Position numbers and translations under genes: made by a program
The notes under the pieces: generated by a model
Told to the model about the DNA's origin: nothing
Databases searched by the model: none
What the model saw: the letters and a program-made list of their open reading frames with translations, nothing else
Shown here: piece by piece, positions 3,983-46,110 of the stretch
How positions within the stretch are numbered: position 1 is the stretch's first letter
Layout: each line of letters opens with the position of its first letter
IMG/VR virus record: IMGVR_UViG_3300025632_000003
Coordinates: 1 to 61,451 of that record
Reading direction: 5' to 3' (one strand)
DNA length: 61,451 nucleotides
DNA from: a virus

Positions 3983-6415
3983 ATGGCTAGAGGCGTAACA
4001 AATAGTTTTTTTCCAAGTCAAGTTGTAAGTGATCAAGAGAAGATGTCTTTTGATTATGGGTTACAAGTTGGTAGAGCAATTGCTAATGAATGGTTTGATG
4101 GTAATTCCGGAATAACTAGATTTAAAAGCAATCAAAATACATTCAATGCTTTAAGATTGTATGCAAGAGGAGAGCAACCTATACAAAAGTATAAAGACGA
4201 AATGTCTATAAACGGAGATTTATCTTACCTAAACTTAGACTGGAAACCCGTACCTATTTTATCTAAATTTGTAGATATTGTAGTTAATGGTATATCCGAT
4301 AGAAGTTTTGATATCACAGCTTACTCTCAAGACCCTTACGGTATTTCTAAAAGGACCGCTTATATGGAGTCCATAATCAGAGATATGCAAACGCAAGAAT
4401 TAAACAACTTTGCTCAAGAGCAATTTGGTATTAATCTGTTTGAGAATGCTCCTGATAAATTACCTGACTCTGAAGAGGAGCTAGATATACACATGCAACT
4501 TAGCTACAAGCAAGGTATCGAGATAGCGGAAGAAGAAGCTATTAATACAATGCTTGTTACCAATAATTACGATTTAACAAAAAGAAGAATAAACGAAGAT
4601 TTAACTATACTAGGTATTGGAGCTGTTAAGAACAACTTTACAGAATCTAATGGAGTTACTGTTGAATACGTAGATCCAGCTTATATGGTTTATTCTTATA
4701 CAGAAGACCCCTACTTTCAAGATATATATTATGTAGGTGAAGTAAAATTTGTGCCTATTAATGAGCTTAAGAAACAATTCCCCGATTTAACACAAAGTCA
4801 GTTAGAGCAAATTCAACAACAAGGAACACAGAATAAGGGTGTATATAACAATAATTTAACCAACGACTATAATAACAACAGAGACTCAAACGTAATACAG
4901 CTTTTGTACTTTAATTACAAAACTTATATGAATGAGGTTTACAAGGTTAAAGAAACAGCAACCGGCGCAACTAAGGTAATAGTAAGAGATGATCAGTATG
5001 ATCCACCTATAGAAGCTTATGAAGCAGAGTACGGTAAGTTATCTAGATCTTTAGAAGTGCTATACGAAGGTGTGATGGTATTAGGTACTAACCTATTATT
5101 GCGATGGGAAATGGCTCCGAATATGATGCGACCTAAAAGTGATTCATCTAAAGTTAAAATGAATTACTCTATTACTGCACCTAGAATGTATCAAGGCAAG
5201 ATAGAATCTATAGTTAGTAGATGTACAGGTTTTGCAGATATGATTCAATTAACTCATTTAAAGCTACAGCAAGTACTTCAGAGAATGATACCTGACGGTG
5301 TTTATTTAGACGCTGATGGTATTAATGAAGTTGATTTAGGTAACGGAACTAACTACAACCCTCAAGAAGCGCTTAATATGTTCTTCCAAACAGGATCTGT
5401 TATTGGTAGATCGTTCACCCAAGATGGAGATATGAATCCTGGAAAAGTTCCAATTCAGGAAATACAAACTGGTAGTGGTGGTCAAAAAATGGCAACATTA
5501 ATTCAGACTTACAATTATTATCTACAAATGATAAGAGATGTAACTGGATTAAACGAAGCGAGAGACGGTAGCACACCTGATTCAAGAGCTTTAGTGGGTA
5601 TTCAAAAAATGGCGGCAGCAAATTCAAACACAGCTACAAGACATATACTAGATGCCGGATTGTTCTTAACAAAAGAAACAGCGGAGTGCTTATCTCTTAG
5701 GATATCTGATATATTAGAATACCATCCAGCTAAAGAGGCTTTTATTCAAAAGATAGGTGGATTTAATGTAGCTACTCTAGAAGAGCTAAGTGACTTGCAT
5801 TTACACGACTTTGGTATATTTTTAGAGTTAAGACCTGATGATGAACAAAAACAGGTTTTGGAAAACAATGTACAAGTAGCTTTACAAGCAGGTTTAATAG
5901 ATTTATCCGATGCTATCGATATCCGCGAAGTTAAAAATATAAAATTAGCTAATCAATTGCTGAAAGTTAAGCAAAAAAAGCGTCAAGAAAGAATTCAAGC
6001 TGAACAGCAAGCTAACATACAAGCACAAGCACAAGCAAACGCTCAAGCCCAGCAAGTAGCAGCTCAAGCTGAAATACAAAAGGATCAGGCTCTATTCTCT
6101 ACAAAATCTCAACTTGAACAGTTGAAAGGGCAGATCGAACAACAAAGAATACAAGTTGAAGTAGCAGCAAAGAAAGAATTGATGGAGCTGGAATTTCAGT
6201 ACAACATGAAACTTAAAGATGTTGAGGTTGAAGCTATGAAGGCAAAAGAAAATTCCATAGAAGACCGAAAGGACAAGCGTACTAAGATGCAGGGTACGCA
6301 ACAGAGTGAGATGATTGCTCAAAGACAACAAGATTTACCACCAAAAGACTTTGAATCGTCGGGAAATGACGTGATGGGTGGTGGATTTGGCTTAGGTTCC
6401 TTCGAACCTAGGTAA
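3983..6415 (+). CDS. Portal protein
   Basis: An 810-residue protein between the large terminase and the scaffold/capsid genes, which is the portal position. The N-terminal two thirds look globular alpha/beta and contain the conserved-looking GLNEARDGSTPDSRALVGIQKMAAANS segment region near residues 520-555 (quoted in part as RDGSTPDSRALVG), typical of podoviral-type portals. The last ~150 residues are a long Gln/Ala/Lys coiled coil, followed by a Gly-rich tail, as in portals with a C-terminal barrel or extended helix. It would form the dodecameric DNA channel at the capsid vertex. Confidence 0.8.
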   Translation: MARGVTNSFFPSQVVSDQEKMSFDYGLQVGRAIANEWFDGNSGITRFKSNQNTFNALRLYARGEQPIQKYKDEMSINGDLSYLNLDWKPVPILSKFVDIVVNGISDRSFDITAYSQDPYGISKRTAYMESIIRDMQTQELNNFAQEQFGINLFENAPDKLPDSEEELDIHMQLSYKQGIEIAEEEAINTMLVTNNYDLTKRRINEDLTILGIGAVKNNFTESNGVTVEYVDPAYMVYSYTEDPYFQDIYYVGEVKFVPINELKKQFPDLTQSQLEQIQQQGTQNKGVYNNNLTNDYNNNRDSNVIQLLYFNYKTYMNEVYKVKETATGATKVIVRDDQYDPPIEAYEAEYGKLSRSLEVLYEGVMVLGTNLLLRWEMAPNMMRPKSDSSKVKMNYSITAPRMYQGKIESIVSRCTGFADMIQLTHLKLQQVLQRMIPDGVYLDADGINEVDLGNGTNYNPQEALNMFFQTGSVIGRSFTQDGDMNPGKVPIQEIQTGSGGQKMATLIQTYNYYLQMIRDVTGLNEARDGSTPDSRALVGIQKMAAANSNTATRHILDAGLFLTKETAECLSLRISDILEYHPAKEAFIQKIGGFNVATLEELSDLHLHDFGIFLELRPDDEQKQVLENNVQVALQAGLIDLSDAIDIREVKNIKLANQLLKVKQKKRQERIQAEQQANIQAQAQANAQAQQVAAQAEIQKDQALFSTKSQLEQLKGQIEQQRIQVEVAAKKELMELEFQYNMKLKDVEVEAMKAKENSIEDRKDKRTKMQGTQQSEMIAQRQQDLPPKDFESSGNDVMGGGFGLGSFEPR

Positions 6416-21115: not shown

Positions 21116-24100
21116 ATGGCAAATCCAGATCCAATATACAAAATAAATAATAAAGAAATACCTGCGTCTACCATAAAGTTAGCAGCGGAGCAAAACGGTA
21201 TGACTTTTGAAGAATATGTAACTAGACGCGGCGCTGTTTTAGTGCCGGGAAAGAAGACAGACTCTACAACTGCGGATCCAAATGTGGAGTCAGAAAATAC
21301 GGGATCAACTTCGGCAGAAGATTTTTCGGTATCGAGGTTAGGTGATGCTGAAGTGCAATTAGATGAATTTAGTGAACCGGTTACTATAAAAGCCTGGGAA
21401 GAAGAAACTAACAAATACATTGATGAAAATCCAGACTTAACGGCTGATGAATTATCTGAATGGATAAATCGACCAGGTGGGCCTACAGAATCTCAATACT
21501 CTTTTCAAGAAGAAAAAGAAATATTTGAGGCTAACAAAAAAGAGCCTAAACTAGATAATCCTAATTACAGTCCTAACGATTTCATTATAAGCTTATATGA
21601 AGATCCTGGGTTTAATAAAAACAAACCGGCTTTATCCGCTTATGATAATGAACTTGAATTTTTAAAAAATAAACAAAAAGATTATCCCATAATGTCCACA
21701 GAATCTGCGGATATACAATCTCAAATTAATCAACTTGAATATAACAAGCAAAACGAATTAGAGGATAATAGAACCACTGCGTCTAGAGCAAGAAATTTAA
21801 TTACTCAAAAAATTAACGAAGCTGACGCTTATTGGAATGATGCCCAAGCAAAGCTTCAAGCAGGGGAAATAACTCCAGAAGAGTTTGCCGCGGTAGAGCG
21901 TAACTATGACAACAAAAGAGCAAACATATTTCAAAATTCTCTCGAAAAAGATAGATATGACGAGCAAACATTACTACTAAACGAAGTATCTACAGCTAAA
22001 ACCAAAGATACTTATAGTAGTTTTGGCTCAAGCGACTTAGGCGAAAACAAAAAAGAACAAATTGAATTTGACCAAAAAGTCGAAGATGAAATAATAAATA
22101 AATTATATTCTGACAATAAATTAAAAGGTAAAACTCTTGATGGCAATCTTAATCTTGAGGGAAAAGAAATGCTTATTACCGAAGCAAAAAGTAAAGTACT
22201 GAATCAATCTTACGAAGAGTATTTAAACGAATACGATAAAGCTCAAGAAATAATATTTGCTGCAGACGAAGCAAGCTCAGTAACCCCTGAAGCCGCTACC
22301 GCAGCTCAAGCTATATTGTATAACGCAGCTGATAAATTACAAACAACATCTACTAAACTAGCTTTTAATATAGGAGAGCAGGTTTTTGATAACAATTTTC
22401 AAATGACTGAAGATTTTATTAAATGGAGAGATAGACATATCGATGGTGGTTTTGTTGGAGGTACAGCAGATTTTATAGGTACCCTTGTCCAAGGAGGGCA
22501 AAAACTCATTGGGGAATCCATTGTTGGTAGTGCTATTTGGTTAAATAGACTTGCTTTTACAGGTATGGGTACTTTTGAAGAAGATGAGTATTCTAGATTA
22601 GACATGGTAAGCGACATGTTTTCTAACTACAACTCATTTAATTACCTAGGAGTTAGTCCTAAAGGCGGGAGTTTATCTGAAGATGGGATATCTTTTAGAT
22701 CTGGTAGCAAAACTATAGCTAATATGTTACCTTTTACGATAGGAGTAGCGCTAGCTGCCCGTAAAGGTGATATGAAAGGTCTAAAAAACGCTTACTCTTT
22801 ATTAAAAGGAATGGGGGCAAGTGCTAGCACCATAAATAAAATAAAAATGGGCGGGTTTGCTTTTAGAGCAACCGTTAATGATAATTACATGGAAGGTAAG
22901 CAAATGGGGTTAGATGACAGTCAAGCTCTTGCTTATTCAAGCATGGCATCCACTGCTACGGCTGTAGTGCAGGGTATCATGCCTGATGTAAATTTCTTTA
23001 AAACCAACATAGGTAAATCTATGTTAAATACCGTTGTAGAAAACTTAAAGAAAGCAACTACAAAAGAAGCTAGAAAAGCGGTAGGAAAGCAGTTTGTTAA
23101 TAGTCTTTTAGGAGAGATTGGTGAGGAAGAGGCTGAATTATTACTTCAAGATATAGCTAAAATAACTGTAGGCTTAAGTAATGAAACCAAATTTACTGAT
23201 TTTGACACTCAATTTGAAACCATAGGAGGAACAATCCTTTTAGCAGGTGGTACTTCTACGGTAATGGCTCCTACTCAATTTAGTAATTTTAAAAATAAAA
23301 TATATAATCAATACAGAACTCAAGGTGCTGATATAATAAAAACTTTACAAGAAAGCAAAAAAGTTGTAGAGACTAAATTAAAAAGAGCTAGAACTCAACA
23401 AAGTAAAGACGCTGCTCAACGCCAATTAGACGAAATAAATTCGGCTATAGACTATGGAGGCGATATTATAAAAGCTATTAATGTTGCTCCTGATGTAATG
23501 AATGACGAGCAAATAGATTTGCTTATACAAAAAAATCAATTACTAGAGAGAAAAGCAAAAGCAGATAAAAGATACACAAAGGGGATTGATGCAGAAATTG
23601 AAGCTATTGATGCTAAAATAGAAGCTTCTCAAGTTAAGCAACAATCTTCAATTATAGAAGAAAGAACAGAAGCTGGTACTAAAAAAATAGCAGACGCTTT
23701 AGGTATTACTTTTGAAAAAGGTAACAAGGCAAAAATTAGTGAACTAATAGCTCAAGAAAATGCAGCTAGAGAAGAAAGAAACAAAGGAAAAAGCAAAGCT
23801 AATAAAGAAGATTTAATAAATGTGAATGAGGCTTTAGCTCAAAACGGATTTATTATACAAAATGCGGATGGCACTCAAACCATAGCGGTTAATGAAGACG
23901 TTGCAGGTACAAATAAAGCAGTAACCACAGCTCAGCATGAATTACTACATGGAGTGTTGCTTAAAACCATTACAGACAATCCTGGAGCAATAGTACAAAT
24001 GGGCAATGCTCTTAGATCTGAAATTGATAAAATGTTACCTAATGACATTAGTTTTAACAATGTTTATATTCAAGGTAGACTCGAAGCTTATAAGGATTCT

Positions 24101-27100
24101 CCGTCTAGCGTAAAAGCTGAGGAATTACTTACTATATTTTCAGAAGGATTAACCCAAGGATTTATATCGTTTGAAGAAAACGCTTTTACCAAAATAGGTG
24201 ATTTTATTCGCCAAGGGTTACAAAGAGCTGGTATGAATGTTACTTTTAATTCAGGTAGAGACGTATTTAATTTTATAAAAGATTTTAATAAAAGTGTAAT
24301 TGAAGGAAAAGGATTAGGTAAAGGATTAACTAAAGCAGCTAAAGAAGGAGCAAAAGTTGGTAAAAAACTTGGAAGCACTAGTGCGTTTTTATATAACGCA
24401 AATTTTGAAGCAAACATACAAAATGAATACAATAGTTCTAAACTAGAATTACCTAAAAAAGCTTTAAAAATAGCTATGGCCTACAGGTCACGAGTACAAG
24501 AACTAATAAACAAATCTTCTAACGACGTTTTTGGTACCGCTGAAAAAGCAAACGCTGTTGAATACGCTTTAATTGGTAAAAATAACCCCAACAGTATATA
24601 TAACACCGTGTTAAATTATGATAATAATTCCGGTATTACATTAGACGATACTATAGGTAAAACGGTTTCAGGTATTGGGGAAACTGCTGTTACTGAAAAA
24701 TACTCCAAAGAAGGACCTAAATCTGTTTTGAACGAAATTAACAATTTAGTTCCACCTAGTGTTAAAACTCAAGCAGACTATTTTTCACCTAAAGTTTTTA
24801 ATCCTATATACAATGCTACCTTACCAAACGGTGTTATTAGCAATTACATAAAGTCAAAATCACCTAGTAAAGAAGTTGGAGAAAAAGCTATAGCGGGAAT
24901 ACAAGATCGATTAGTTAACTATGATCCAGCAGCAGAAAGAAAGAAAGCTGGAAACAAAGAGCCCATTACTTTTGGCGAGTTTATATTCGCTAACACAAAT
25001 TTCATTAAGTTAGATGCTAAAAAAGCTTTATTTAAAGAAAGTGAAGCCGCTAAGAAAACTACAGACTTAGATACTAAAGAAGCACAGAGTAAAATTGCTG
25101 AAGATGATGCTGTTAAAAAAGATAGACCTAAATTTAGGAAACTAATTGACAGTAGCGTTTTACCCGGTTTTACTATTAAAGAAATTGGCGGTAAATTAAC
25201 TAAAGTTTTAAAAGTATTAAAATCTAAGCTTGATGCTAAAGTTTCTATAAACAAATCGGTTTCACCTTTAATCGCTGAGATAAAGAAAGCAATGGGTAAG
25301 CAAGCTGATATTGATCTTAAAAAGGCTATGGGTGGAAAAGCCGATGCACAACTACAAAAATGGTTGTTAAAGAATAAGAAGGCAATACTAGAGAACATGA
25401 CAACCACTTGGTTAATGGGCGCGATTCCTAAGGCTATTCAAAAATCCGTGGGAGGTACGTATAAAGTGGATTCTAATGGAACAAGAGTTAAAGATTCTTA
25501 TGGAGACTTTGTATTTGTACCAAACTTTACAAGTGATTGGCAAGGTAAGACTATAGATAGAGAGAAGACATCGACAAACAAGTTAGGAAAAACTGCTGGA
25601 GGAGATATAGTTAGAAGATTACCTAATATAGCGACTGCTTTAAGTGACGCTGACTTCGTTGGATCTGTGTTACAGGATGTAAGTATAGATGCTGATGGTA
25701 AGATGACCTCAGGAGCTCCTATACGAGGCAAGAAAGAGTCTATGGCTAAAGCTATAGCTGAAGAAATATCATTAGAGATATTCAACAAAGAGTTACAAGA
25801 CGAAAACAGTGAAATAAGTAAGGCTTTTGAAAATAATCAAGTTGCCAGAGGTGTTGTTTTGGTAGATAACTTCGTTGAAGATGTAGCTAGGCAATCTGAA
25901 AGAGGTACCGTTAAGTTTTCTAAGGCGGCAATAAGATTGGGGGTAGCATCTGATATTATAGATGGCATAAATACAGAAGAATTTAAAAATAGATTTTTCA
26001 CGCATGCCAACGACCCTAAAAACAAACTACCTCTTTACACTTCTTTAATAGAACAATTCCAGAGATACTCAATAGAAGACCTTAAGGTAAGTGATTTAAG
26101 AACAATAGCAGCTGAACTAAGCAAAGATTATACATTTAAACCTTTTGGAGAAATAGGTATTGAAAGAATACAAGAAACCGAGGGTGTTTTAAAAACGCTT
26201 AAGTATATACTAGAAAACACTAAAGAAGGCCTTACTAGGGGCAATAGCTATGCTACTGCTCAACAAATATATCAAAGCGTAGACACTAAACTTGACGAAA
26301 AAACAATACAGGGATTAAACGAAGGTAGAGCAGCTGTTAAGAAAGTTGTGGAAGTGCTGGTTGATCAAGGTTTCACTGGTAATGAAATTAAGAATATATT
26401 TGTAGCCGTATACAGCCCTAGTGGGTTAGGAGGCTTTAAAGGCAAGCTAAATAAAGATGGAAAAACCAGAGCTACACCTGATAGTGACATTTTAGTAGAA
26501 AGTGATTTAGGGCTGCCGAATTACAAGAAGGATACTGAAACCGGAATGCCAACTACGCAAATTGAGAATAGAGGATCTTTTATGGTCAGTGTATCTGATT
26601 TTGAACAGAATTTTCTTAGAGGCATTGAAATGGGGGATAAAGTTTCCACCAGAACGGACGCTTACACTAAAAATTTCTGGTCAAAAGATAACTCTGTATA
26701 CAATAAGTTGGATAACGAAGGTAAAAAAGAATACCTACAAGAATTACAAGAAGGTAAAAAAGAATTTCAAGCCAGCTTAATAAAATTTATAGAAGCAGTT
26801 AACAAAGCAGATATATCACCAGCAGCGCAAAGAACTTTAATTAGATTGCCTTTTGCAGCAATGGATGGACTGGGTAAAATTACTTCAGCTCCTAGATGGA
26901 TGCCTGCCAAACTAGACGGCACGTTATTAAGCTTAAAAGACTTAGTTAAGCTTGGATTTGGTAGAAAAGACGGTAAGATTGATAAAGGTGTGTTTGAACA
27001 TACAAAACCCGCTAATAGAATGGCTATAGCAGCTTACATATATTCTATGACTGGTAAAAAAGCTGACCTGGATATTCTAATAGAAGAACTTTCTGATTTT

Positions 27101-30100
27101 GACACAGCTTTTATTACGGAAGGCATGGATAAGGGTTTAGTAAGAAACAAACTGCAATCACTTATGGGCCTTAATTATGTTCGTGGAGCAGGCGTTATGA
27201 CAACCAGGTATGCGGAAATGATCCAGGAAATGAATAAAGCTGGGGTAACTTTCTATGACGCTAAAAATAATACCTTTTTAAGCCCTGCTGGAGCCCTTGG
27301 CCCGCAATTGAATCAGGAAATGGAAAACAATCTTGCTCCTGTAAAAACAGAACAAAAGGCTATCAATAATGCTAGAAGTATTAAGTGGTCTCAATCACCT
27401 AAAAAAATAAGGGTATTTGATTTCGACGATACATTAGCTCGTACAAAAAGTAATGTGCTATACACAATGCCTGACGGAACTACTGGTAAAATTGATGCGG
27501 CTACTTTTGCTAAAGACGCGGGTAAGATGGAAGCTGAAGGTGCTCAATGGGATTTTTCTGAGTTTAGTAAAGTAATGAATGGACAAGCTGGACCTTTGCT
27601 TGAGGTTGCTAAAATTATAGCAGACAAAAGAGGAACTAAAGATGTATTTGTTTTAACAGCAAGACCTGCTGATGCTGCTGGTCCTATTCAAGAATTTCTT
27701 AGTGAGCTAGGATTAGATATACCTTTAGAAAATATTACTGGGTTAGGCAACGGAACACCTAAAGCTAAAGCTGATTGGATTATAGATAAAGTAGCTGATG
27801 GCTACAACGACTTTTATTTTGCTGATGATCACACAGGAAATGTTAAAGCAGTTAAAGACGCTTTAGATACTTTCGATGTTAAAGGCAAAGTTCAGTTAGC
27901 TAAAGTTAAGTTTTCACAAAGCTTAGACACTAAGTTTAATGATATGATCGAACGCCAAAAAGGTGTGGAATCGTTTAAAGAGTTTTCTAAAGCAACCGCT
28001 CAGAGAAGAGGTAAAAAAACAGGTAAGTTTAAATTCTTTATATCTCCATCAGCAGAAGATTTTAGAGGATTAACTCAATACAAATTTGCTGGTAAAGGAA
28101 AGCAAGGTGAAGCTGACCAAAAGTTTTTTGAAGAAAGTTTGATGGATCCTTATTTCCAAGGGGTTGCGGCATTAGAATCAGCAAGGCAAACAATCAAAGA
28201 AGACACGAAGGCTTTACTTAAAACCTTTAAGCCAGTTAGAAAGAAGCTAAATAAACTAATAAAAGGTGAGCAGTATACTTATGACGCTGCTGTTCGAGTT
28301 TACTTATGGAATAAAGCTGGAGAAGAAGTGCCTGGACTTTCTAAAAGAGACAACAAGAAATTGAACGATCTTGTAGCTAATGATCCTGAATTAAGCAGCT
28401 TTGCAGATGGATTATTAATAGTATCTAAGAAAGACGCGTGGCCAGCTCCTAGTGAATATTGGATGGCTCAGACGACCTTAAGCGACTTAAATAACCTAAC
28501 TGAAAAAACAAATAGAAAAGAATACTTAGCTGAATTCATTGAGAATGTGGATATTATATTTAGCGAAAAGAATCTAAATAAAGTAGAAGCGCTGTATGGA
28601 GAAGCTTCTAGGAAAGCTATTGAGAACTCTATATACGCAATGAAGTCCGGTAGTAATAGCCCAAACCAAAGTGGTGACGCTATAACTAGTAAATGGATGA
28701 ACTGGGTTAACAGCTCTATTGGTACAATAATGTTTTTTAACAGAAGATCTGCAGTACTGCAAACTCTTTCTGCAGCTAACTTTATAAACTGGTCTGATAA
28801 CAATCCAGCTAAAGCGGCAATAGCATTTGCAAATCAGCCACAATACTGGAAAGACTTTGTAACAATATTTAACTCAGATAAATTAAAGCAACGTAGAGGT
28901 GGTTTGAAATCAGATGTTCAAGAAGCTGAAATTGCTAATGCTGCTAAGAATTCTCAGGATAAAGCTCAAGCTGTTATTTCATATATACTAAAGATAGGTT
29001 TTACACCAACGCAAATTGCGGATAGTTTTGCTATCTCGATGGGTGGGGCTACGTTGTATCGTAATAGAATCAATACCTACAAAAAGCAGGGTCTTAGTCT
29101 AAAGGAAGCGGAAACAAAAGCTTTTGAGGATTTTAGTAAATTGTCAGACGAAGCTCAGCAGTCAGGTGATCCTGCATTAGTCTCTCAACAACAGCGAAGC
29201 GTTGCGGGACGTCTTATCTTGTCGTTTCAAAACACAACGATGCAATACACTAGACTTATGAAAAAGTCTGGCCAGGACCTTATAAATGGACGTGGGGATG
29301 CAAAGACACATATATCTAAGATACTTTATTATGGAGCTATACAAAACTTTTTGTTTAACGCGTTGTCAAAAACAGCGTTTGCATTAATACCTGGATTCGA
29401 AGAAGAAGATGAAGAAGATGAAGATAAAAAGAATCAAGCTATAGAAAAGAAAGCTGCTGGTATATTAGACGGTATGGCTGATTCGGTTATACGAGGTACT
29501 GGAATATACGGAGCTATATTTACTACTTTAAAGAATTCGATATCTACATGGAAAAGAGAAGACGAGAAAGGTTTTACAGGAGATCAAACCAAGACAATTA
29601 TTGAACTAGCAAACCTAGCACCGGCAATAGGTTCTAAACTTAGAAAAGTTTATTCAAGCATTCAGACACGGCAATTTGATAGGGATATTATAGAGAAGCA
29701 TCCTTGGGATGTTACAATAAATGGTAAGTTTAATCCATCATCAACGTATACTATAATAGCTAACTTATCTTCTGCTGCTTTTAATGTACCACTTGATAGA
29801 GCTTTAGCGGAAGCTAGGAGTGTAGGGGAAATGTTGGACGACAGAAATAGCAAGTTTCAAAGAATAGCATTAGCTTTAGGTTGGAGAACATGGAACGTTG
29901 GCGCCAAGAATGAAGAGTTTGATCTTATAAAGCTTGAAGGTAAAGCTAAGAGAAAAATAGAGGGTAAGGAAAAAGCTAAAAGAACTAGAGCTGCTAAAAA
30001 AGAAAAAGAGAAACAACGAGTAGCTAATCTATCTCCAGCAGAAGCTCTTAAAGAAAGAAGAGACAAGGCAGCAGAAAAAAAGAGAAAAGCTTTAGCTAAA

Positions 30101-30145
30101 AGACGAGAAAAATTAAGATCAAGATTAACAAAAAATAAAAAATAA
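21116..30145 (+). CDS. Giant internal virion/polyvalent protein, 3,009 aa, with zincin and HAD domains
   Basis: Third and largest protein of the internal-virion set. Visible segments in order: an acidic, Lys/Glu-rich N-terminal ~400 residues; hydrophobic Gly-rich stretches around 445-480 and 535-550 that could contact membranes; helical coils; a zincin-like HELLH at about 940-945 with a downstream EELLTIFSEG near 1000 that may supply the third ligand; a long middle of unknown fold; a complete HAD-type phosphatase signature at about 2,098-2,250 (FDFDDT, then LTAR, a Lys, and YFADDHTGN); a C-terminal ~700-residue helical region; an acidic run near 2,762; and a Lys/Arg coil tail. Large multi-enzyme proteins of this kind are known as phage 'polyvalent proteins', thought to enter the cell with the DNA. 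Roles of the middle are unknown. Confidence 0.75.
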   Translation: MANPDPIYKINNKEIPASTIKLAAEQNGMTFEEYVTRRGAVLVPGKKTDSTTADPNVESENTGSTSAEDFSVSRLGDAEVQLDEFSEPVTIKAWEEETNKYIDENPDLTADELSEWINRPGGPTESQYSFQEEKEIFEANKKEPKLDNPNYSPNDFIISLYEDPGFNKNKPALSAYDNELEFLKNKQKDYPIMSTESADIQSQINQLEYNKQNELEDNRTTASRARNLITQKINEADAYWNDAQAKLQAGEITPEEFAAVERNYDNKRANIFQNSLEKDRYDEQTLLLNEVSTAKTKDTYSSFGSSDLGENKKEQIEFDQKVEDEIINKLYSDNKLKGKTLDGNLNLEGKEMLITEAKSKVLNQSYEEYLNEYDKAQEIIFAADEASSVTPEAATAAQAILYNAADKLQTTSTKLAFNIGEQVFDNNFQMTEDFIKWRDRHIDGGFVGGTADFIGTLVQGGQKLIGESIVGSAIWLNRLAFTGMGTFEEDEYSRLDMVSDMFSNYNSFNYLGVSPKGGSLSEDGISFRSGSKTIANMLPFTIGVALAARKGDMKGLKNAYSLLKGMGASASTINKIKMGGFAFRATVNDNYMEGKQMGLDDSQALAYSSMASTATAVVQGIMPDVNFFKTNIGKSMLNTVVENLKKATTKEARKAVGKQFVNSLLGEIGEEEAELLLQDIAKITVGLSNETKFTDFDTQFETIGGTILLAGGTSTVMAPTQFSNFKNKIYNQYRTQGADIIKTLQESKKVVETKLKRARTQQSKDAAQRQLDEINSAIDYGGDIIKAINVAPDVMNDEQIDLLIQKNQLLERKAKADKRYTKGIDAEIEAIDAKIEASQVKQQSSIIEERTEAGTKKIADALGITFEKGNKAKISELIAQENAAREERNKGKSKANKEDLINVNEALAQNGFIIQNADGTQTIAVNEDVAGTNKAVTTAQHELLHGVLLKTITDNPGAIVQMGNALRSEIDKMLPNDISFNNVYIQGRLEAYKDSPSSVKAEELLTIFSEGLTQGFISFEENAFTKIGDFIRQGLQRAGMNVTFNSGRDVFNFIKDFNKSVIEGKGLGKGLTKAAKEGAKVGKKLGSTSAFLYNANFEANIQNEYNSSKLELPKKALKIAMAYRSRVQELINKSSNDVFGTAEKANAVEYALIGKNNPNSIYNTVLNYDNNSGITLDDTIGKTVSGIGETAVTEKYSKEGPKSVLNEINNLVPPSVKTQADYFSPKVFNPIYNATLPNGVISNYIKSKSPSKEVGEKAIAGIQDRLVNYDPAAERKKAGNKEPITFGEFIFANTNFIKLDAKKALFKESEAAKKTTDLDTKEAQSKIAEDDAVKKDRPKFRKLIDSSVLPGFTIKEIGGKLTKVLKVLKSKLDAKVSINKSVSPLIAEIKKAMGKQADIDLKKAMGGKADAQLQKWLLKNKKAILENMTTTWLMGAIPKAIQKSVGGTYKVDSNGTRVKDSYGDFVFVPNFTSDWQGKTIDREKTSTNKLGKTAGGDIVRRLPNIATALSDADFVGSVLQDVSIDADGKMTSGAPIRGKKESMAKAIAEEISLEIFNKELQDENSEISKAFENNQVARGVVLVDNFVEDVARQSERGTVKFSKAAIRLGVASDIIDGINTEEFKNRFFTHANDPKNKLPLYTSLIEQFQRYSIEDLKVSDLRTIAAELSKDYTFKPFGEIGIERIQETEGVLKTLKYILENTKEGLTRGNSYATAQQIYQSVDTKLDEKTIQGLNEGRAAVKKVVEVLVDQGFTGNEIKNIFVAVYSPSGLGGFKGKLNKDGKTRATPDSDILVESDLGLPNYKKDTETGMPTTQIENRGSFMVSVSDFEQNFLRGIEMGDKVSTRTDAYTKNFWSKDNSVYNKLDNEGKKEYLQELQEGKKEFQASLIKFIEAVNKADISPAAQRTLIRLPFAAMDGLGKITSAPRWMPAKLDGTLLSLKDLVKLGFGRKDGKIDKGVFEHTKPANRMAIAAYIYSMTGKKADLDILIEELSDFDTAFITEGMDKGLVRNKLQSLMGLNYVRGAGVMTTRYAEMIQEMNKAGVTFYDAKNNTFLSPAGALGPQLNQEMENNLAPVKTEQKAINNARSIKWSQSPKKIRVFDFDDTLARTKSNVLYTMPDGTTGKIDAATFAKDAGKMEAEGAQWDFSEFSKVMNGQAGPLLEVAKIIADKRGTKDVFVLTARPADAAGPIQEFLSELGLDIPLENITGLGNGTPKAKADWIIDKVADGYNDFYFADDHTGNVKAVKDALDTFDVKGKVQLAKVKFSQSLDTKFNDMIERQKGVESFKEFSKATAQRRGKKTGKFKFFISPSAEDFRGLTQYKFAGKGKQGEADQKFFEESLMDPYFQGVAALESARQTIKEDTKALLKTFKPVRKKLNKLIKGEQYTYDAAVRVYLWNKAGEEVPGLSKRDNKKLNDLVANDPELSSFADGLLIVSKKDAWPAPSEYWMAQTTLSDLNNLTEKTNRKEYLAEFIENVDIIFSEKNLNKVEALYGEASRKAIENSIYAMKSGSNSPNQSGDAITSKWMNWVNSSIGTIMFFNRRSAVLQTLSAANFINWSDNNPAKAAIAFANQPQYWKDFVTIFNSDKLKQRRGGLKSDVQEAEIANAAKNSQDKAQAVISYILKIGFTPTQIADSFAISMGGATLYRNRINTYKKQGLSLKEAETKAFEDFSKLSDEAQQSGDPALVSQQQRSVAGRLILSFQNTTMQYTRLMKKSGQDLINGRGDAKTHISKILYYGAIQNFLFNALSKTAFALIPGFEEEDEEDEDKKNQAIEKKAAGILDGMADSVIRGTGIYGAIFTTLKNSISTWKREDEKGFTGDQTKTIIELANLAPAIGSKLRKVYSSIQTRQFDRDIIEKHPWDVTINGKFNPSSTYTIIANLSSAAFNVPLDRALAEARSVGEMLDDRNSKFQRIALALGWRTWNVGAKNEEFDLIKLEGKAKRKIEGKEKAKRTRAAKKEKEKQRVANLSPAEALKERRDKAAEKKRKALAKRREKLRSRLTKNKK

Positions 30146-39521: not shown

Positions 39522-39546
39522 TTGTTTTAGTTTTAATTGTTAATCG

Positions 39547-39584
39547 TTTATATTATCTATAGTCATTCGTGTTACATTTGTAAG
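39547..39584 (-). promoter_or_regulatory. Promoter-like element P1 (ssb-primase operon)
   Basis: Copy of the repeated element, read on the minus strand as TACAAA, four bases, ACACGA, nine bases, GATAATATAAA. It ends about 26 bases before the SSB start. It probably drives the replication/nucleotide operon running down to nrdA, since no other copy was seen in 31.5-39.5 kb. Confidence 0.75.
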
Positions 39585-39585
39585 C

Positions 39586-40329
39586 CTATAATGTCTTATT
39601 GATAAAATAGTTTTCCGGTTTAAAGTCCGGGTTTTCGTAAAATAATTTATACTGTTCTACTGCTTGCTGCACTTTGTTCTTACCACTTTCGTAGAAAGAA
39701 TCTGAACAATCGAATATACCGATTTGCCGCGTAGTTTTGTCTATTGCTATGAAGATTAAATCATAACCAAATATCTTACGATAGATGTAGGCTTGACTGT
39801 CGTAATTGTAACGGAAAGCTGAGCTTCTAAACTTTGTTATATCACTGGTTGTTTTAAGATCTATTATTAATCTTTCGTCGTGATTTACTATATCAGCTTT
39901 ACCTTTCCACATCATACCTTCAATCTCACCAATCCCAGGCTGTTCGTATTCGACGTTAATGCCGTTTATTAATCCACTACAAGTTTCGTTAGATGTCATA
40001 GTATCTATAAGTAATTCTAACTTATCTACTTCGTGGGATAACAAACACATTTCGCCACCTGAGATCTCCTTGTACGCTTTAGTATTCCTAGTTGTTGTAC
40101 CTTCTATAATTCTATACTTTTTTAATTTGTCAGGTTCTAGTATAGCTGTATGAAAATAACCACCAATCAAAAAATTAATGTTTGGCTTCTGTGGAGTACC
40201 AAGCGCAAGAGGGTTTGTTAACAGTGTAGAAATATCAGAGTTGCTTCTAAATTGTCGGCCAAAGTCACCATAGTAATCTTCATCGCTTTTAAGTCTATCT
40301 AATATTTCTTTTTTGTTAAGATCATTCAT
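39586..40329 (-). CDS. RecE/Cas4-like PD-(D/E)XK exonuclease
   Basis: A 247-residue protein with the nuclease core GKADIV, then IIDLKTT (Asp and D-x-K), and a following YDSQAYIYRKIFG helix typical of the RecB/RecE-like exonucleases used in phage recombination. It is encoded directly after the Erf-type annealing protein, the usual exonuclease-annealase pair that repairs and concatenates phage DNA. Confidence 0.8.
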   Translation of the reverse strand: MNDLNKKEILDRLKSDEDYYGDFGRQFRSNSDISTLLTNPLALGTPQKPNINFLIGGYFHTAILEPDKLKKYRIIEGTTTRNTKAYKEISGGEMCLLSHEVDKLELLIDTMTSNETCSGLINGINVEYEQPGIGEIEGMMWKGKADIVNHDERLIIDLKTTSDITKFRSSAFRYNYDSQAYIYRKIFGYDLIFIAIDKTTRQIGIFDCSDSFYESGKNKVQQAVEQYKLFYENPDFKPENYFINKTL

Positions 40330-40333
40330 TGTT

Positions 40334-40882
40334 TTACAGGGTTGTTAATTTTGCCTCGATTTCTTTAGACAAGGCATACTTTGCTTTTATTGCTTCAACT
40401 TTACCACCTGCTTTAATATATTCCTGCGCCTTCTTAAAGGCTGGATCTTTTTCTGAGGTTAAGGTATTTTTAGTTTTAGCAGCGGTTGCATTTCCGCTTC
40501 CATTAGTGGCGTCACTATCAGCCGTGTCATCAATTAAGAATAAGTTTCCGAGTGCATATTTTTTTCCGTAAGAGGAAGCACTACCAAATTTTTGTGGCAT
40601 TTGCATACCTTTCTGAACTAAATCTACACCAACAATAGCAGCAGCGTGTATAGCACTTTCGCCGTCAGAGATAGTAGCCTTTGATTCCAAAATAGGGAAT
40701 GGCTCATTCTGAATTAACACTTCGTTAATTGTTACGCTTACTCCTAATTCTAATAAATAGGGTTTTGTTGCTTCTAGGATGTCTTCGGCTGATCTGAAGT
40801 TGTACTTGCCGAATGAATTAAATCTACTTTTTTTAGATTTGAATTTAGTCTGGATAGTAGCCAGTTTTTCATTTAATTTCAT
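40334..40882 (-). CDS. erf: Erf-family single-strand annealing protein
   Basis: A 182-residue protein whose N terminus (MKLNEKLATIQTKFKSKK, then NSFGKYNFRSAEDILEA) matches the Erf/essential-recombination-function superfamily, including the later FGSASSYGKKYALGNLF segment. It anneals complementary single strands in partnership with the adjacent exonuclease. The upstream gap 40883-40943 has no clear copy of the promoter-like element. Confidence 0.88.
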   Translation of the reverse strand: MKLNEKLATIQTKFKSKKSRFNSFGKYNFRSAEDILEATKPYLLELGVSVTINEVLIQNEPFPILESKATISDGESAIHAAAIVGVDLVQKGMQMPQKFGSASSYGKKYALGNLFLIDDTADSDATNGSGNATAAKTKNTLTSEKDPAFKKAQEYIKAGGKVEAIKAKYALSKEIEAKLTTL

Positions 40883-40943
40883 TAGATTGCATTTTGTTGT
40901 TATTAATATAATTACGCATTATCACTTTAATTTAAGCCTTAAG

Positions 40944-41705
40944 TTAAAGATAATCAATCACTTGTGTTGCGTCGACGTTGGCGATTAAACGGTCAATTGC
41001 TTCTTTTTTTATTTGAGAAACAATTACAATAGCTGTTACAGCAGTGATTCCCACTCGCTTAGCTATTTCTTTAGCTGGCACTTTTTCGCAATCTAAACCA
41101 TAGGACATTCTTAATATATCATATTGTTTTTCCGTAAGATGCTCTCGCATTATACTTAACAAATAAGTGTTGAGTAAGTCAATATTATATGGTTCAGATT
41201 TATCAGCTATATTCATAACCCACGAGGAATTTTCATCATCTTCTCCTTTGTACTCGTTGTCGTAGCTAGCGAATACACTGTTGAAAAACAATGACACTAA
41301 TTTATCGTCATTAGGATTTTTTCTTATTTGTATTAATTTGTTTTCAGGAATCTTTATGTCTCCTCTGTTTATGTCTATAGCTCTCCGTATTGCTCCTTTA
41401 ATTCTTTTGGATAGAAACGACTTTAATGTTTTTTCTATGTCCTCAGAACTGTTTAATTGTTCCCAGTCTAATTTATCAACCGCTAAAACTAATCCAGCAT
41501 TACCTTCTTGTATTAGATCGTTTATACTTAAAACACCTGAAGCTTGATCGCTGGTTGAAAATTTTCTAGCTATATTCTCTACTAAAGGCAGAAATGAAAC
41601 TATTAGCTCATTCCTGGTATAATCTTGAAAAAATTGCTCTAGTGGCATGGATCTTTTTACATCGTTTTTATATCTAACATAATTCTGTATATTGTATTTT
41701 TTCAT
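40944..41705 (-). CDS. Phage-encoded sigma-70-family RNA polymerase sigma factor
   Basis: A 253-residue protein with region 2 (NDLIQEGNAGLVLAVDKLDW and RIKGAIRRAID) and a region-4 helix-turn-helix (LTEKQYDILRMSYGLD and AKEIAKRVGITAV). It would redirect host RNA polymerase to phage promoters; no phage RNA polymerase was recognised, so this is the most likely transcriptional switch. A promoter-like element lies only six bases before the ATG shown, so the transcript may be leaderless or translation may start at the Met 19 codons in (41648). Confidence 0.85.
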   Translation of the reverse strand: MKKYNIQNYVRYKNDVKRSMPLEQFFQDYTRNELIVSFLPLVENIARKFSTSDQASGVLSINDLIQEGNAGLVLAVDKLDWEQLNSSEDIEKTLKSFLSKRIKGAIRRAIDINRGDIKIPENKLIQIRKNPNDDKLVSLFFNSVFASYDNEYKGEDDENSSWVMNIADKSEPYNIDLLNTYLLSIMREHLTEKQYDILRMSYGLDCEKVPAKEIAKRVGITAVTAIVIVSQIKKEAIDRLIANVDATQVIDYL

Positions 41706-41710
41706 ATATT

Positions 41711-41745
41711 CATATTATCAAACACTGTTCGTGTTATTTTTGTAA
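41711..41745 (-). promoter_or_regulatory. Promoter-like element P2 (sigma factor)
   Basis: Minus-strand copy: TACAAA, four bases, ACACGA, nine bases, GATAATATGAA. The inner dyad CGAAC/GTTTG is complementary with one G-T pair. It overlaps the 3' end of the upstream gene. Confidence 0.7.
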
Positions 41746-42366
41746 ACTAATTTGTTGGTTTAAAAGAGTTTTTTCTTTCTTCAGTTCGTTGCCCATGTTT
41801 CTATGTATTGTTCTAACCGAACATTTTAACTCTTCAGATAGCTTGTTTATAGTTATCTTTTCATTTTCGTTGTTTATTAGAACCATAGCATCGTATATTT
41901 CTGATTCAGATATACTCTTCCTACCAACCATCTTGCCTACTATAGACAATTTTTCTCTCATAGTCAGACCAGTAAAATCTTTAAATATTATCTTCCTTAA
42001 TTTATTAGGAGGTGGCTTGTCTAAATCCATGAGGGAAACATCATATACCATATTATCTAGTAATTGATCAGAAACAGTAAATGTCACAAATCCGTTTTCT
42101 CTTTTGCATACATGCTTTGCAATCGTATTAAAGTCTTCTTGGTCCATTTGAGGATTCAAGTACCATAACACATACAGATGCCATTTAAGACTCTTATAAG
42201 TCGTTATTTTAGCTTTAGAGTTAAAGAGTGTATAGCATTCATGCGTACCATTCTCATAAAAGCTACCCCATTCAAAGACCTCTGTAGGTTTGTCTACTAT
42301 TGGATCTCGCTTATAAGTAACTTTATATCTATGCAGGTAATCCATTCTTCTTTCGTATTGTGACAT
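41734..42366 (-). CDS. Helix-turn-helix protein, 210 aa
   Basis: The C terminus (ITINKLSEELKCSVRTIHRNM) is a clear helix-turn-helix. The N-terminal ~130 residues are alpha/beta with aromatic residues and no recognised family. It lies directly before the sigma gene and may be a transcription regulator or replication initiator. It contains one GCTATACAC word, in a different reading frame from the other copies. Confidence 0.65.
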   Translation of the reverse strand: MSQYERRMDYLHRYKVTYKRDPIVDKPTEVFEWGSFYENGTHECYTLFNSKAKITTYKSLKWHLYVLWYLNPQMDQEDFNTIAKHVCKRENGFVTFTVSDQLLDNMVYDVSLMDLDKPPPNKLRKIIFKDFTGLTMREKLSIVGKMVGRKSISESEIYDAMVLINNENEKITINKLSEELKCSVRTIHRNMGNELKKEKTLLNQQISLQK

Positions 42367-42376
42367 TAGCTTATTA

Positions 42377-42412
42377 CTATTATATTATACTAGCTATTGT
42401 CGCATTTCTGCC
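42377..42412 (-). promoter_or_regulatory. Degenerate promoter-like element P3
   Basis: Minus strand reads ATGCGA, nine bases, GTATAATATAAT, matching the ACACGA-N9-GATAATATAA core with a few changes; the TACAAA block is not clear. It lies 11 bases before the helix-turn-helix gene. Confidence 0.4.
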
Positions 42413-42633
42413 TAGTATATAATTAATTTTAATCTTCTGTTATATTTTTTTAAAAGCTTAGCTTTATTTTCTATGTTACCTTTTACTACAGTTATGTTTT
42501 TATTACAGCTATATTCACTTTTGAATGAAGATATAATTATCTCGTGGTTTAATTCAGCTATTCTGTCTTGTACTAGGTGCACGTGTTTCCGCTTTCTTCT
42601 GCTCTTTTTTAACTTTTGTATTAATGTTCGCAT
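42412..42633 (-). CDS. Basic hypothetical protein, 73 aa
   Basis: Very Lys/Arg-rich (IQKLKKSRRKRKHVHLVQDR) helical protein, overlapping the upstream gene by 13 bases. A nucleic-acid-binding role is plausible from charge only. Confidence 0.55.
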   Translation of the reverse strand: MRTLIQKLKKSRRKRKHVHLVQDRIAELNHEIIISSFKSEYSCNKNITVVKGNIENKAKLLKKYNRRLKLIIY

Positions 42634-43112
42634 AATTCGTTAATGTTAAGTGGACGTATAATTTTTTGCTCATTTTTATTTGCTATTTTGTATTTATCTT
42701 GTTCGTAATAATTCCAGTAAGCTGAAACGCTGTTGTTTTTTACTTTATATTCGTCCGGCATACACTGGGGAGGTTCTGTAAAAGACCCTGTTGGTATATT
42801 TGAAGGGGCTACTGCTAAAATATCTTTGCATTTTGTAATTGTTAAGTGGGTTTTATTATATCGTTTTGTGTATTCAGCACCTAATGCTAGCATGTGATTA
42901 TATAGCCATTGATAATTCTCGTTGTTTGCTCGTACCCATACAGAGCTAGGATGATTTAAGTGAGACTTTTTGTACGGTACATTTTCATTGCCTAACGCAT
43001 GATGAGCAGTACACAACATTTGAGCACACTCAAGTATCATCTTAACTTTGTGTTTATCGTAAAAGTAACTAGCAGCTACTTTAGGATCTGGGTGTAAATA
43101 AAATATATTCAT
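42621..43112 (-). CDS. Conserved phage protein with YDKHKVKM motif, 163 aa
   Basis: Begins MNIFYLHPDPKVAASYFYDK; the pattern 'D-K-H-x-V-K-M-x-x-E-x-A-Q-M-L-C-T-A-H' is shared by many phage proteins sometimes labelled pyrimidine-dimer glycosylase-like. The HPSSVWVRANNENYQWL segment is also typical. The biochemical role is unproven; a DNA-repair label should be treated as tentative. The start overlaps the preceding stop as TAATG, and it belongs to the ligase operon. Confidence 0.65.
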   Translation of the reverse strand: MNIFYLHPDPKVAASYFYDKHKVKMILECAQMLCTAHHALGNENVPYKKSHLNHPSSVWVRANNENYQWLYNHMLALGAEYTKRYNKTHLTITKCKDILAVAPSNIPTGSFTEPPQCMPDEYKVKNNSVSAYWNYYEQDKYKIANKNEQKIIRPLNINELCEH

Positions 43113-43219
43113 TAGTATCTTTTTTTACTTAGTCTGTTATAATGTTTGTCTAATAATAGGTTTGCGACTTCTTCGCTTATCATGTTTTCGTTGTATAGTT
43201 GCCATATTAGTTTACTCAT
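43112..43219 (-). CDS. Small protein downstream of ligase, 35 aa
   Basis: The start at 43219 (MSKLIWQLYNENMISEE) is chosen because it overlaps the ligase stop by eight bases (ATGAGTAA); a longer frame from 43318 would run deep inside the ligase gene. It ends in a basic KHYNRLSKKRY tail and couples to the next gene by TAATG. Confidence 0.5.
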   Translation of the reverse strand: MSKLIWQLYNENMISEEVANLLLDKHYNRLSKKRY

Positions 43220-44039
43220 AGTTACGTAAGGTTTTATATAACGGGTGACGGTAGCTATTAGCTTTAGTACGCTCGAAATAAGTGAATGTAGCACGCTTGC
43301 CAACATAATTTTTAACATTAGCTAGTATATCGCGGCGATCTTGAAAGTTGTAGCCTTTGCCGATAGGACAGCCGAACTCAATACCGTTGTCGTCGCGCAT
43401 TAAGAACTTGCCGATTAAGCCAGTGAACTTGCCTTTGCCGGGTACATAGCCTACAATTGTAGCTTCGGTGTCGTGAAAATCTTTGAACTTTTGTAAGTTG
43501 TAAGAACGTTTACATTCGTAAACACCGTTAAGACGCAATATAGAGCCTTCGTAGCCTTCGTCAAGCCAGTTTTCGTGTATAGCATTAGCTAAGTCGCGAG
43601 TTGCAACAGAATGCGTAGGAACATACTTAACACAATAAGAATACAATGCTGCAGTAGACAAAAATTTCATACGCTCTTCGAACATAGCTGAAGTATCAAT
43701 GTAATCGTAACAATGGAATTGAACGAGATCACACGATTCAACGCGATCGGAAGCAGTTGGTTTGGTTTTACGAACAAGTGAAATGATTTTTTCGAAATCG
43801 TTTTTTAGTTCGTGGTTGTATAATTCACCGTCTAGTATTAAGTCTGGGTGTTTGTGAAACACTGGGACTAAGCTAGATAGTATATGGTCGATGTTTAGCC
43901 ACGGTTTACCTGTGCGTGAAAATGCACCGGCTTTAGAAATTACACAACGTACACCGTCAAGCTTAGGCTGCATGAATACTTTCTCGGACCAGTTAACAGG
44001 TTTTTTGTCTACTTTGTATGCGAGCATTGGTTTTATCAT
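43212..44039 (-). CDS. ATP-dependent DNA ligase
   Basis: A 275-residue minimal ligase. Motif I KLDGVR near residue 28 has the adenylated Lys; LILDGELY, EGSILR and LQKFKD match motifs III, IV and V. The C-terminal OB-fold part is short, with no zinc finger or BRCT domain. It seals nicks in phage DNA. Followed in the operon by several small genes and preceded by promoter-like element P4. It contains a GCTATACAC word encoding NAIH. Confidence 0.9.
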   Translation of the reverse strand: MIKPMLAYKVDKKPVNWSEKVFMQPKLDGVRCVISKAGAFSRTGKPWLNIDHILSSLVPVFHKHPDLILDGELYNHELKNDFEKIISLVRKTKPTASDRVESCDLVQFHCYDYIDTSAMFEERMKFLSTAALYSYCVKYVPTHSVATRDLANAIHENWLDEGYEGSILRLNGVYECKRSYNLQKFKDFHDTEATIVGYVPGKGKFTGLIGKFLMRDDNGIEFGCPIGKGYNFQDRRDILANVKNYVGKRATFTYFERTKANSYRHPLYKTLRNYE

Positions 44040-44060
44040 AATGTTTATATTTTAGTTACA

Positions 44061-44097
44061 TTTATATTATCAATATATAATCGTGTTTTGTTTGTAA
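44061..44097 (-). promoter_or_regulatory. Promoter-like element P4 (ligase operon)
   Basis: Minus strand: TACAAA, four bases, ACACGA, nine bases, GATAATATAAATG, then TAAC. It lies 22 bases before the ligase start and directly after the preceding gene's stop. Confidence 0.78.
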
Positions 44098-44098
44098 G

Positions 44099-44368
44099 TT
44101 AGTCTTCGTCTAAGAATTCAGATATTTTGGTTTGTAGCTTAATAGCTAATGAATAGTCTTCATCTTTTACAGCTTGAGCTAGTTTTGTTTCAAGTGATTC
44201 AAGAGTTACTTCTTCAGTTGCTTTATTAGGCATCACTTCCCATGTACCTGATTGAATGTCGATCTGCTTAGCAAATTCTTCATCATATTCTTTTTGTTTT
44301 TTTTCCATAGCAGCGATGACAGTCTTAGCCACCGCTGTAGCTAGCTTTTCTATTTCTTTATCAGTCAT
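44099..44368 (-). CDS. UVR-motif-like helical protein, 89 aa
   Basis: The C-terminal half, LETKLAQAVKDEDYSLAIKL, resembles the UVR motif of UvrB/UvrC and ClpC-type proteins (E-x-A-x-x-x-E-D-Y-x-x-A-x-x-L). The N terminus is helical and charged. It is coupled to the KTSC gene. A protein-interaction role is likely; DNA repair is not implied by this motif alone. Confidence 0.6.
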   Translation of the reverse strand: MTDKEIEKLATAVAKTVIAAMEKKQKEYDEEFAKQIDIQSGTWEVMPNKATEEVTLESLETKLAQAVKDEDYSLAIKLQTKISEFLDED

Positions 44369-44598
44369 TAAGCGAAGCTGTAGTTATATACAGGTAGCAC
44401 GTATTTGTTAATAAATTTACCTTTAGATTCAGAAATTCTTAAGCCTTCAAACACATGGTTTGGTACTTTAGTATAATTGTAACTTCTTCCGTTGGTAAAG
44501 GTTAACTTTAAGCGGTACTTATCATATTGATATTCAGCTGTTGAGATTGCGGTAGAGTTAACATCTACAGATTGCATTGGTAATACTAATTTGTTCAT
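44368..44598 (-). CDS. KTSC-domain protein, 76 aa
   Basis: Matches the small KTSC domain: STAISTAEYQYDKYRLKLTF, then NGRSYNYTKVP and ESKGKFINKYV. The family is frequent in phages and plasmids, and its role is still unclear. First gene after promoter-like element P5. Confidence 0.78.
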   Translation of the reverse strand: MNKLVLPMQSVDVNSTAISTAEYQYDKYRLKLTFTNGRSYNYTKVPNHVFEGLRISESKGKFINKYVLPVYNYSFA

Positions 44599-44620
44599 AA
44601 GTTTAATTTGTTTTAGTTAT

Positions 44621-44656
44621 TATTATTATCGATTGTTGTTCGTGTTTATTTTGTAA
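44621..44656 (-). promoter_or_regulatory. Promoter-like element P5 (KTSC operon)
   Basis: Minus strand: TACAAA, four bases, ACACGA, nine bases, GATAATAATAA. It lies 23 bases before the KTSC start. Confidence 0.72.
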
Positions 44657-44658
44657 GA

Positions 44659-45264
44659 TTAATGGAATACTAATCCTACTTTGTGATTTTTACTAAACCA
44701 TCTCGTTGCCATTAAGTCAATCTCAGAAGAATCCACATAGTCAGCAGAAACAAGATCGCTGTGGCTAGAAAATATTCTGGTGTGTCGGTGTTTTCTTTCA
44801 TTTATTAATTCTTTTTGTTTACCGGAGTCACTAAATATTATGTCATAGTTACTAGGCAAAGGTACACTTAAAAACATTTTGATCATGTTGGTATAACTGT
44901 AAAACCGCACGTTTGGGTTGGCTTTTGCAACCTCAATCCACTTATTTAGATATGCGCGAGAATAATAATCGCCACTATCATGGACTCTTACGTAGTCAGG
45001 TTTCTTCTTACGTATTTCAGTGTTCATAGCTTCTACAAAATCATCTGTTTTGCTTAGCTCATAACGCTTTTCAAACGCCGGTTTTACATTAGACCAGATG
45101 TAGGCTCCTTTCTTGGCGTAACAGAACTTTACACATTCGTCAGCCATAGGACATGTTAACTTACCACTTGCAGATTTATATGCAGGTATGCCAAAGTTAA
45201 ACACACGAAGCCCTAATACTTTAGATGTCTTCTTTAATTTAGTATTTTGAGTTAGTAAATTCAT
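44659..45264 (-). CDS. Gene product 88-like protein (Cys-rich, 201 aa)
   Basis: Contains TCPMADECVKFCYAKKGAY near residues 37-55 and VRVHDSGDYYSRAYLNKW near 92-110, both hallmarks of the phage 'gene product 88' family, which has a cysteine cluster reminiscent of radical-SAM-like proteins. Function is not established. Last gene of its operon; its stop abuts promoter-like element P5. Confidence 0.75.
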   Translation of the reverse strand: MNLLTQNTKLKKTSKVLGLRVFNFGIPAYKSASGKLTCPMADECVKFCYAKKGAYIWSNVKPAFEKRYELSKTDDFVEAMNTEIRKKKPDYVRVHDSGDYYSRAYLNKWIEVAKANPNVRFYSYTNMIKMFLSVPLPSNYDIIFSDSGKQKELINERKHRHTRIFSSHSDLVSADYVDSSEIDLMATRWFSKNHKVGLVFH

Positions 45265-45265
45265 A

Positions 45266-45872: not shown

Positions 45873-45876
45873 ATTA

Positions 45877-46110
45877 TTATATTTTATTTGATTTTTCTAT
45901 TAATTCAGCAATATACTGCCATACTTTTAATTCTGTTTTGTTACCTTCGGCGATTAATGTAGCTTGCTCAAGAGTTATATCAGCACCGTAATTTTTTGTT
46001 TCAAGATTGTGTTCGTCTTGTTGTATTATTATTTGACACATCTCTACTTTAGCGAAAGCTTTGTTGCTAGCTCGCTGGTGTATAGCATTAATCTTCGAAT
46101 GCATCGCCAA
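45877..46110 (-). CDS. Hypothetical protein, 77 aa
   Basis: Helical protein starting MAMHSKINAIHQRASNK; the INAIH segment is encoded by a GCTATACAC word. It overlaps the upstream gene's end by 23 bases; a Met two codons later is an alternative start. Function unknown. Confidence 0.55.
   Translation of the reverse strand: MAMHSKINAIHQRASNKAFAKVEMCQIIIQQDEHNLETKNYGADITLEQATLIAEGNKTELKVWQYIAELIEKSNKI

Follow-up and report, generated by a model that had tools for sequence, protein, structure and literature searches.

A giant polyvalent protein, very probably virion-borne, with an apparently obligate zincin and exchangeable cassettes in a Bacteroidota-type podophage

The stretch of DNA analysed here, referred to below as the window, spans 61,451 nucleotides (positions 1 to 61,451 of IMG/VR virus record IMGVR_UViG_3300025632_000003) and encodes a protein of 3,009 amino acids (aa) in a single open reading frame (ORF) with an ATG start, bounded exactly as a preliminary sequence-only reading had proposed (Table 1). 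This giant protein is best placed in the phage polyvalent-protein class (Iyer et al. 2017, PMC5512222), as a variant with new features. On balance, we lean towards a reading in which it is packaged in the virion, its zincin metallopeptidase cuts its own linkers and so frees the enzymes, including a HAD phosphatase of the polynucleotide 3'-phosphatase type, and its cassettes are exchanged. What appears to be new, judging from alignments, is an obligate zincin amid exchanged flanking cassettes, the enrichment of a [KR][FWY]S linker at cassette borders, and the nesting of kinase and putative ADP-ribosyltransferase cassettes within the phosphatase of relatives. Searches of viral contigs with three different queries supplied the relatives, of which 103 non-redundant complete frames were retained.

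Table 1. Features of the giant protein and their positions in the window
Feature	Residues (aa)	Coordinates	Strand	Basis
Giant polyvalent-type, probable virion protein	3,009 in all	21116..30145	+	ORF; position kept in MW202828, elemoB, phi18:3, phi38:1 and Panino
N-terminal glycine-rich/hydrophobic domain, proposed ejection domain	411-857	22346..23686	+	hhalign to virion-locus proteins of known phages
Predicted zincin metallopeptidase domain	850-1085	23663..24370	+	Invariant H/E/H/E; one HExxH in 103/103; zincin fold matches; elemoB homology
HExxH (HELLH)	941-945	23936..23950	+	Invariant in alignments
Putative third zinc ligand, Glu	1003	24122..24124	+	Invariant in alignments
KYS linker, recombination border	1195-1197	24698..24706	+	95% identity to L014 starts at aa 1197; L122/L175 homology stops at 1194
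Middle module D, conserved	1197-1602	24704..25921	+	44/103 relatives; 95% identity to L014, flanks on both sides unrelated
KFS linker, recombination border	1600-1602	25913..25921	+	L014, L016 and L173 homology stops at aa 1602
Exchangeable cassette	1603-2073	25922..27334	+	Unrelated in L014 and L016 despite flanks 84-97% identical
HAD phosphatase domain, polynucleotide 3'-phosphatase type (predicted)	2080-2290 (core 2096-2265)	27353..27985	+	PHROG_415; invariant motifs; Pnkp1/T4 Pnk structural matches
KWS linker, ahead of HAD domain	2090-2092	27383..27391	+	Motif position
KFS linker, between HAD and C-terminal domain	2265-2267	27908..27916	+	L143 HAD homology stops at aa 2265; low pLDDT nearby
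Helical C-terminal domain, conserved	2300-2945	28013..29950	+	102/103 relatives; viral polyvalent/LPD fold matches, E ~1e-13 to 1e-5

The zincin and phosphatase domains

On the evidence of the alignments, the zincin domain is real and under strong selection. Every one of the 103 relatives has exactly one HExxH, against a composition-based expectation of 0.66 in total over all 103, and the His, Glu and His of this motif, together with a Glu 62 residues past the first His (E1003), are invariant in both alignments (39/39 relatives in set A1, 24/24 in set A6), with a mean column identity of 26%. An iterated profile groups the zincins of 91 relatives with that of the window, the other 12 being of a second type, and the zincin profile also matches the zincin of the elemoB structural protein (1.3e-7). 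In an AlphaFold model of aa 850-1610 (predicted local distance difference test, pLDDT, 72), the HExxH helix and the Glu helix lie behind a small sheet, which is the zincin layout. The best second-look structural matches of residues 1-192 of the model are M34-type zincin peptidases (Z ~6 over 143-145 residues), with PPEP-1 at Z 4.8, modest values that indicate fold rather than function.

The HAD domain, also real and under strong selection as judged by conservation, is present in 87 of the relatives, among them 44 of the 59 gathered by the C-terminal query alone. Its catalytic residues (motif I, D2102/D2104/T2106; motif II, T2181/R2183; motif III, K2218; motif IV, D2237/D2238) are invariant in 68/68 aligned relatives, at a mean column identity of 52%. 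PHROG_415, 'polynucleotide kinase', is matched by the whole protein (1.6e-6), by the domain (3.9e-8) and by 54 of the 68 relatives. In an AlphaFold model of aa 1955-2945 (pLDDT 80; predicted template modelling score 0.73), the closest solved structures to the HAD domain are 4xrp (Z 10.2), 4xru (10.1), 1ltq (10.0) and 2ia5 (9.2), that is, Pnkp1 and T4 Pnk, which match over 120-122 residues at a root-mean-square deviation of 2.4-3.1. These structural matches came from VIA-align; with Foldseek alone, neither model had a significant match in the PDB. The sequence-only reading had recognised the HExxH with its downstream Glu as well as all four HAD motifs, and both assignments, now with the corresponding predicted folds, stand. 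Its phosphatase survives as an enzyme domain with intact motifs, but not as a nucleotide phosphatase in general, the domain most resembling polynucleotide 3'-end phosphatases by PHROG_415 and by modelled structure.

Other searches were less informative. Pfam and NCBIfam scans of the whole protein returned chance matches only (to DUF4618, in a coiled region). Neither the zincin nor the C-terminal half had a BLAST match among 50,697 phage records, and the HAD and zincin profiles found nothing meaningful among PDB sequences. By profile comparison, the giant proteins of elemoB, phi18:3 and MW202828 have no HAD match, in which they differ from that of the window.

With T4 polynucleotide kinase/phosphatase (T4 Pnk) and bacterial Pnkp1, the window protein shares the HAD phosphatase fold and motifs, and three relatives also have a P-loop kinase in the same polypeptide. 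Unlike those bifunctional enzymes, the window protein contains no P-loop kinase, its phosphatase is embedded in a probable virion protein, and the kinase of the relatives lies inside the phosphatase rather than ahead of it. In L044, L065 and L073, the kinase is inserted between HAD motifs I and II, which would make an inside-out kinase/phosphatase; in L047, it replaces the HAD domain. L015, L070, L072 and L081 carry another domain between motifs I and II, and in the two tested, L070 and L015, this gave a match to ART-PolyVal below the cut-off. When the L044 kinase was compared with PDB sequences, the four best matches (E 0.0045-0.005), 4gp7, 4jst and 4mde among them, were bacterial Pnkp kinase domains, with zeta toxin at 0.079. 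The nested kinase weakly supports nucleic-acid ends as the HAD substrate.

Cassette exchange and the [KR][FWY]S linkers

Sequence comparison among the relatives shows that phages have traded cassettes through recombination at the edges of modules. To illustrate, L014 is 97% identical to the window protein over aa 2076-3009 and 95% identical over aa 1197-1602, but across most of aa 63-922 and 1603-2075 the two are unrelated. Positions 1197, 1602 and 2073-2078 are recurrent breakpoints. The roughly 1,100 residues between the enzyme domains, which the sequence-only reading had left unassigned, can now be divided into a conserved module and an exchangeable cassette; a family search with the former, module D, returned no match.

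Four of the five [KR][FWY]S sites in the window protein (1195, 1600, 2090 and 2265) are found on or close to module borders, and two of its sites fall in low-confidence stretches of the models. In the full set of relatives, such a site lies no more than 8 residues from 46 of 291 high-identity breakpoints, compared with a mean of 6.9 and a maximum of 31 for shifted positions. The subset K[FW]S is likewise enriched at breakpoints; none of five control patterns is. Motif density is 1.69 per 1000 aa in the cassette region and 0.39-0.68 elsewhere. Because the motif Ser is encoded by both AGY and TCN codons, the linker is best regarded as a protein-level feature under selection, and we rejected a DNA recombination site on the same ground of varying Ser codons. 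The family has the build of a string of swappable beads, in this case in a marine phage, with a constant protease, an end-repair-like phosphatase and exchangeable parts between, often meeting at a short repeated linker.

A further arrangement is seen in L124, where two tandem cassettes of ~200 aa (weak DUF6934), each bordered by KFS, occupy aa 2205-2650 between the HAD and C-terminal domains. Similar single cassettes occur in L070, L075 and L081.

Probable virion association, protein class and proposed mechanism

An iterated hidden Markov model of the N-terminal region failed to reach known phages, whereas profile-profile comparison succeeded. With hhalign, a profile of 52 relatives (A4) matched phi38:1 gp101 (1.3e-17), elemoB gp20 (4.4e-19), phi18:3 gp123 (5e-14) and Panino (6e-7), at scores of 65-164 against at most 35 for reversed and window-shuffled controls; MW202828 gave no match to this profile. 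The record of phi18:3 gp123 bears the note 'annotation based on experimental MS/MS proteomics analysis'. Because the N-terminal domain is homologous to that of gp123, and the two genes occupy matching positions in their virion clusters, the giant protein is very probably a virion protein. The earlier description, an ejected internal virion protein, is therefore upheld as to the virion; that the protein enters the host together with the phage DNA is inferred from homology and is probable. The phi18:3, phi38:1 and elemoB proteins share with the window protein both the N-terminal domain and a locus that closes the virion gene cluster, and elemoB gp20 has a homologous zincin as well. Those of phi18:3 and phi38:1 differ in being shorter (1,935 and 1,691 aa) and in showing no zincin homology when this was searched for.

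Assignment to the polyvalent class rests on the C-terminal fold, the two enzyme domains and the virion-type N-terminal domain. The model of aa 1955-2945, chiefly in its C-terminal portion, resembles the predicted folds of viral proteins whose names refer to polyvalent domains (LPD/ART-PolyVal). Zincin and HAD domains occur in one frame encoded among virion genes, and the HExxH zincin has its Glu in the second helix. Polyvalent proteins (PMC5512222) are alike in being giant multi-enzyme proteins among virion genes, with a zincin metallopeptidase (MPTase), modular cassettes and, in the case of relatives of the window protein, a putative ART-PolyVal cassette. Unlike them, the window protein has no LPD or MPTase match in Pfam or NCBIfam, and its possible link to the LPD/PolyVal set is by C-terminal fold and, in L070 and L015, by the below-cut-off match; its scaffold is a single conserved one that always carries one zincin, and it has a HAD phosphatase, of which the main text of PMC5512222 makes no mention. 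The C-terminal profile does not match the giant proteins of elemoB, phi18:3 or MW202828.

The N4 virion RNA polymerase is also a giant zincin-bearing virion protein (Iyer et al. 2017, PMC5512222), unlike which the window protein has no T7-type RNA polymerase domain detectable by Pfam or NCBIfam. With T7 gp16 it shares the proposed role of a large ejected internal protein. The same scans detect no lytic transglycosylase, as the sequence-only reading had observed; its T7 gp16-like frame is rejected for that reason, and the polyvalent class fits better.

Polyvalent proteins have been proposed to be injected with DNA, and this family gives a testable account of how their modules may be released: the zincin is the sole, ever-present protease, the motif found at module borders is a candidate cleavage site, and the phosphatase would mend nucleic-acid breaks on entry. 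In the reading that we prefer, the N-terminal hydrophobic and helical C-terminal domains would handle packaging and ejection, as homology to virion proteins suggests. The zincin would act on its own protein or on sister copies, cutting inter-module linkers, with [KR][FWY]S as candidate sites, and enzymes would be freed in the head or after entry. Within the first few minutes after infection, the freed HAD domain may then strip 3'-phosphates or cyclic phosphates from nucleic-acid ends broken by, for example, host RNases or DNases. Zincin self-processing has been proposed for polyvalent proteins, with the processing of P1 DdrB cited (PMC5512222). A bolder version, which we hold to be doubtful, has the zincin recognise [KR][FWY]S itself and free the cassettes in the new host, where the end-repair phosphatase, with the nested kinase in relatives, would counter host nucleases before phage gene expression.

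Several observations count against the preferred reading. The linker is not universal, since 22 of the 103 relatives lack any K[FW]S, and many breakpoint matches sit at homologous borders and are hence not independent. The zincin fold matches, at Z ~6 in a 761-residue model, are under the clear range; other HAD structures score Z 8.9 and below, and fold is weak evidence for substrate class; and the L044 kinase matches Pnkp at just E 0.005. The N4 virion RNA polymerase, although zincin-bearing too, is packaged uncut (PMC5512222).

The sequence-only reading had instead suggested that the zincin could be an injected effector acting on host proteins; on this view it would cut at least one of them and be kept since the target occurs in every host. 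The fold is indeed common to known secreted effector proteases, a host-directed role is allowed for some polyvalent members by Iyer et al. (PMC5512222), and the divergence of the domain is reminiscent of an arms race, although it is equally compatible with co-evolution of the zincin with its own linkers. What makes host attack unlikely in our judgement is that a single zincin is retained at a similar place in all 103 relatives while its surroundings are swapped, which is not expected of an optional effector; a housekeeping role such as self-processing therefore fits better than a single host target. Somewhat less likely again is maturation before packaging, with the fragments alone entering the virion. 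This has a precedent in P1 DdrB, which is processed before packaging (PMC5512222), but phi18:3 gp123 and phi38:1 gp101, virion proteins of the same locus, show no zincin homology, so processing is not required by all.

For the phosphatase, a small-molecule substrate (nucleotide or sugar phosphate) instead of nucleic-acid ends is conceivable but comparatively improbable. In its favour are the promiscuity of the HAD fold, NagD- and phosphoserine-phosphatase-type structures at Z ~8.5, and weak matches to PHROG_1238 (phosphoheptose isomerase) in 17 of the 68 relatives; against this, the four best structures and the PHROG all point to Pnk/Pnkp, and Pnkp kinase is the best match of the kinase nested in one relative. 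That the protein is essentially structural, with decayed enzyme domains, is suggested by its place among structural genes and is very hard to reconcile with catalytic residues that stay invariant (39/39 and 68/68) while mean column identity is 26% and 52%.

Genome setting

The whole 61-kb record is a complete phage genome, with the same 127 nt present at both ends. The phage is a Bacteroidota-type podophage and, by sequence, is kin of flavobacterial podophages: its terminase and portal (1768-6415) are akin to those of the Flavobacterium elemo, Cellulophaga phi18:3/phi38:1, Maribacter Panino and Tenacibaculum Gundel phages. As in relatives, the giant gene is the final gene of a conserved virion cluster, with terminase, portal and structural genes upstream. 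Matches in bacterial genome bins are mostly on short metagenome contigs with inconsistent host names, and we therefore assign no host. The Flavobacterium elemo phages and Cellulophaga phi18:3 are cultured relatives available for experiments.

The MW202828 counterpart (L005:741-12320; 3,859 aa), annotated 'reticulocyte binding/rhoptry protein', has two HExxH motifs. That of Panino (L003:35423-40912), which has the homologous N-terminal domain, is annotated 'tRNA methyltransferase', a label that looks doubtful.

Elsewhere in the window, a GroES-like gene (958-1548) and a GroEL-like gene (56441-58006) lie near opposite ends of the record. The minus-strand early region (39532-50569) holds 13 copies of a ~51-nt intergenic repeat (TTATATTATCGAT...ATCGTGTT...TTGTA), which may be promoters for the phage sigma factor encoded at 40944-41705. 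At 42621-44039, a pyrimidine-dimer DNA glycosylase gene adjoins that of an ATP-dependent DNA ligase (43212-44039); these phage-encoded enzymes fit an end-repair role for the phosphatase but do not prove it.

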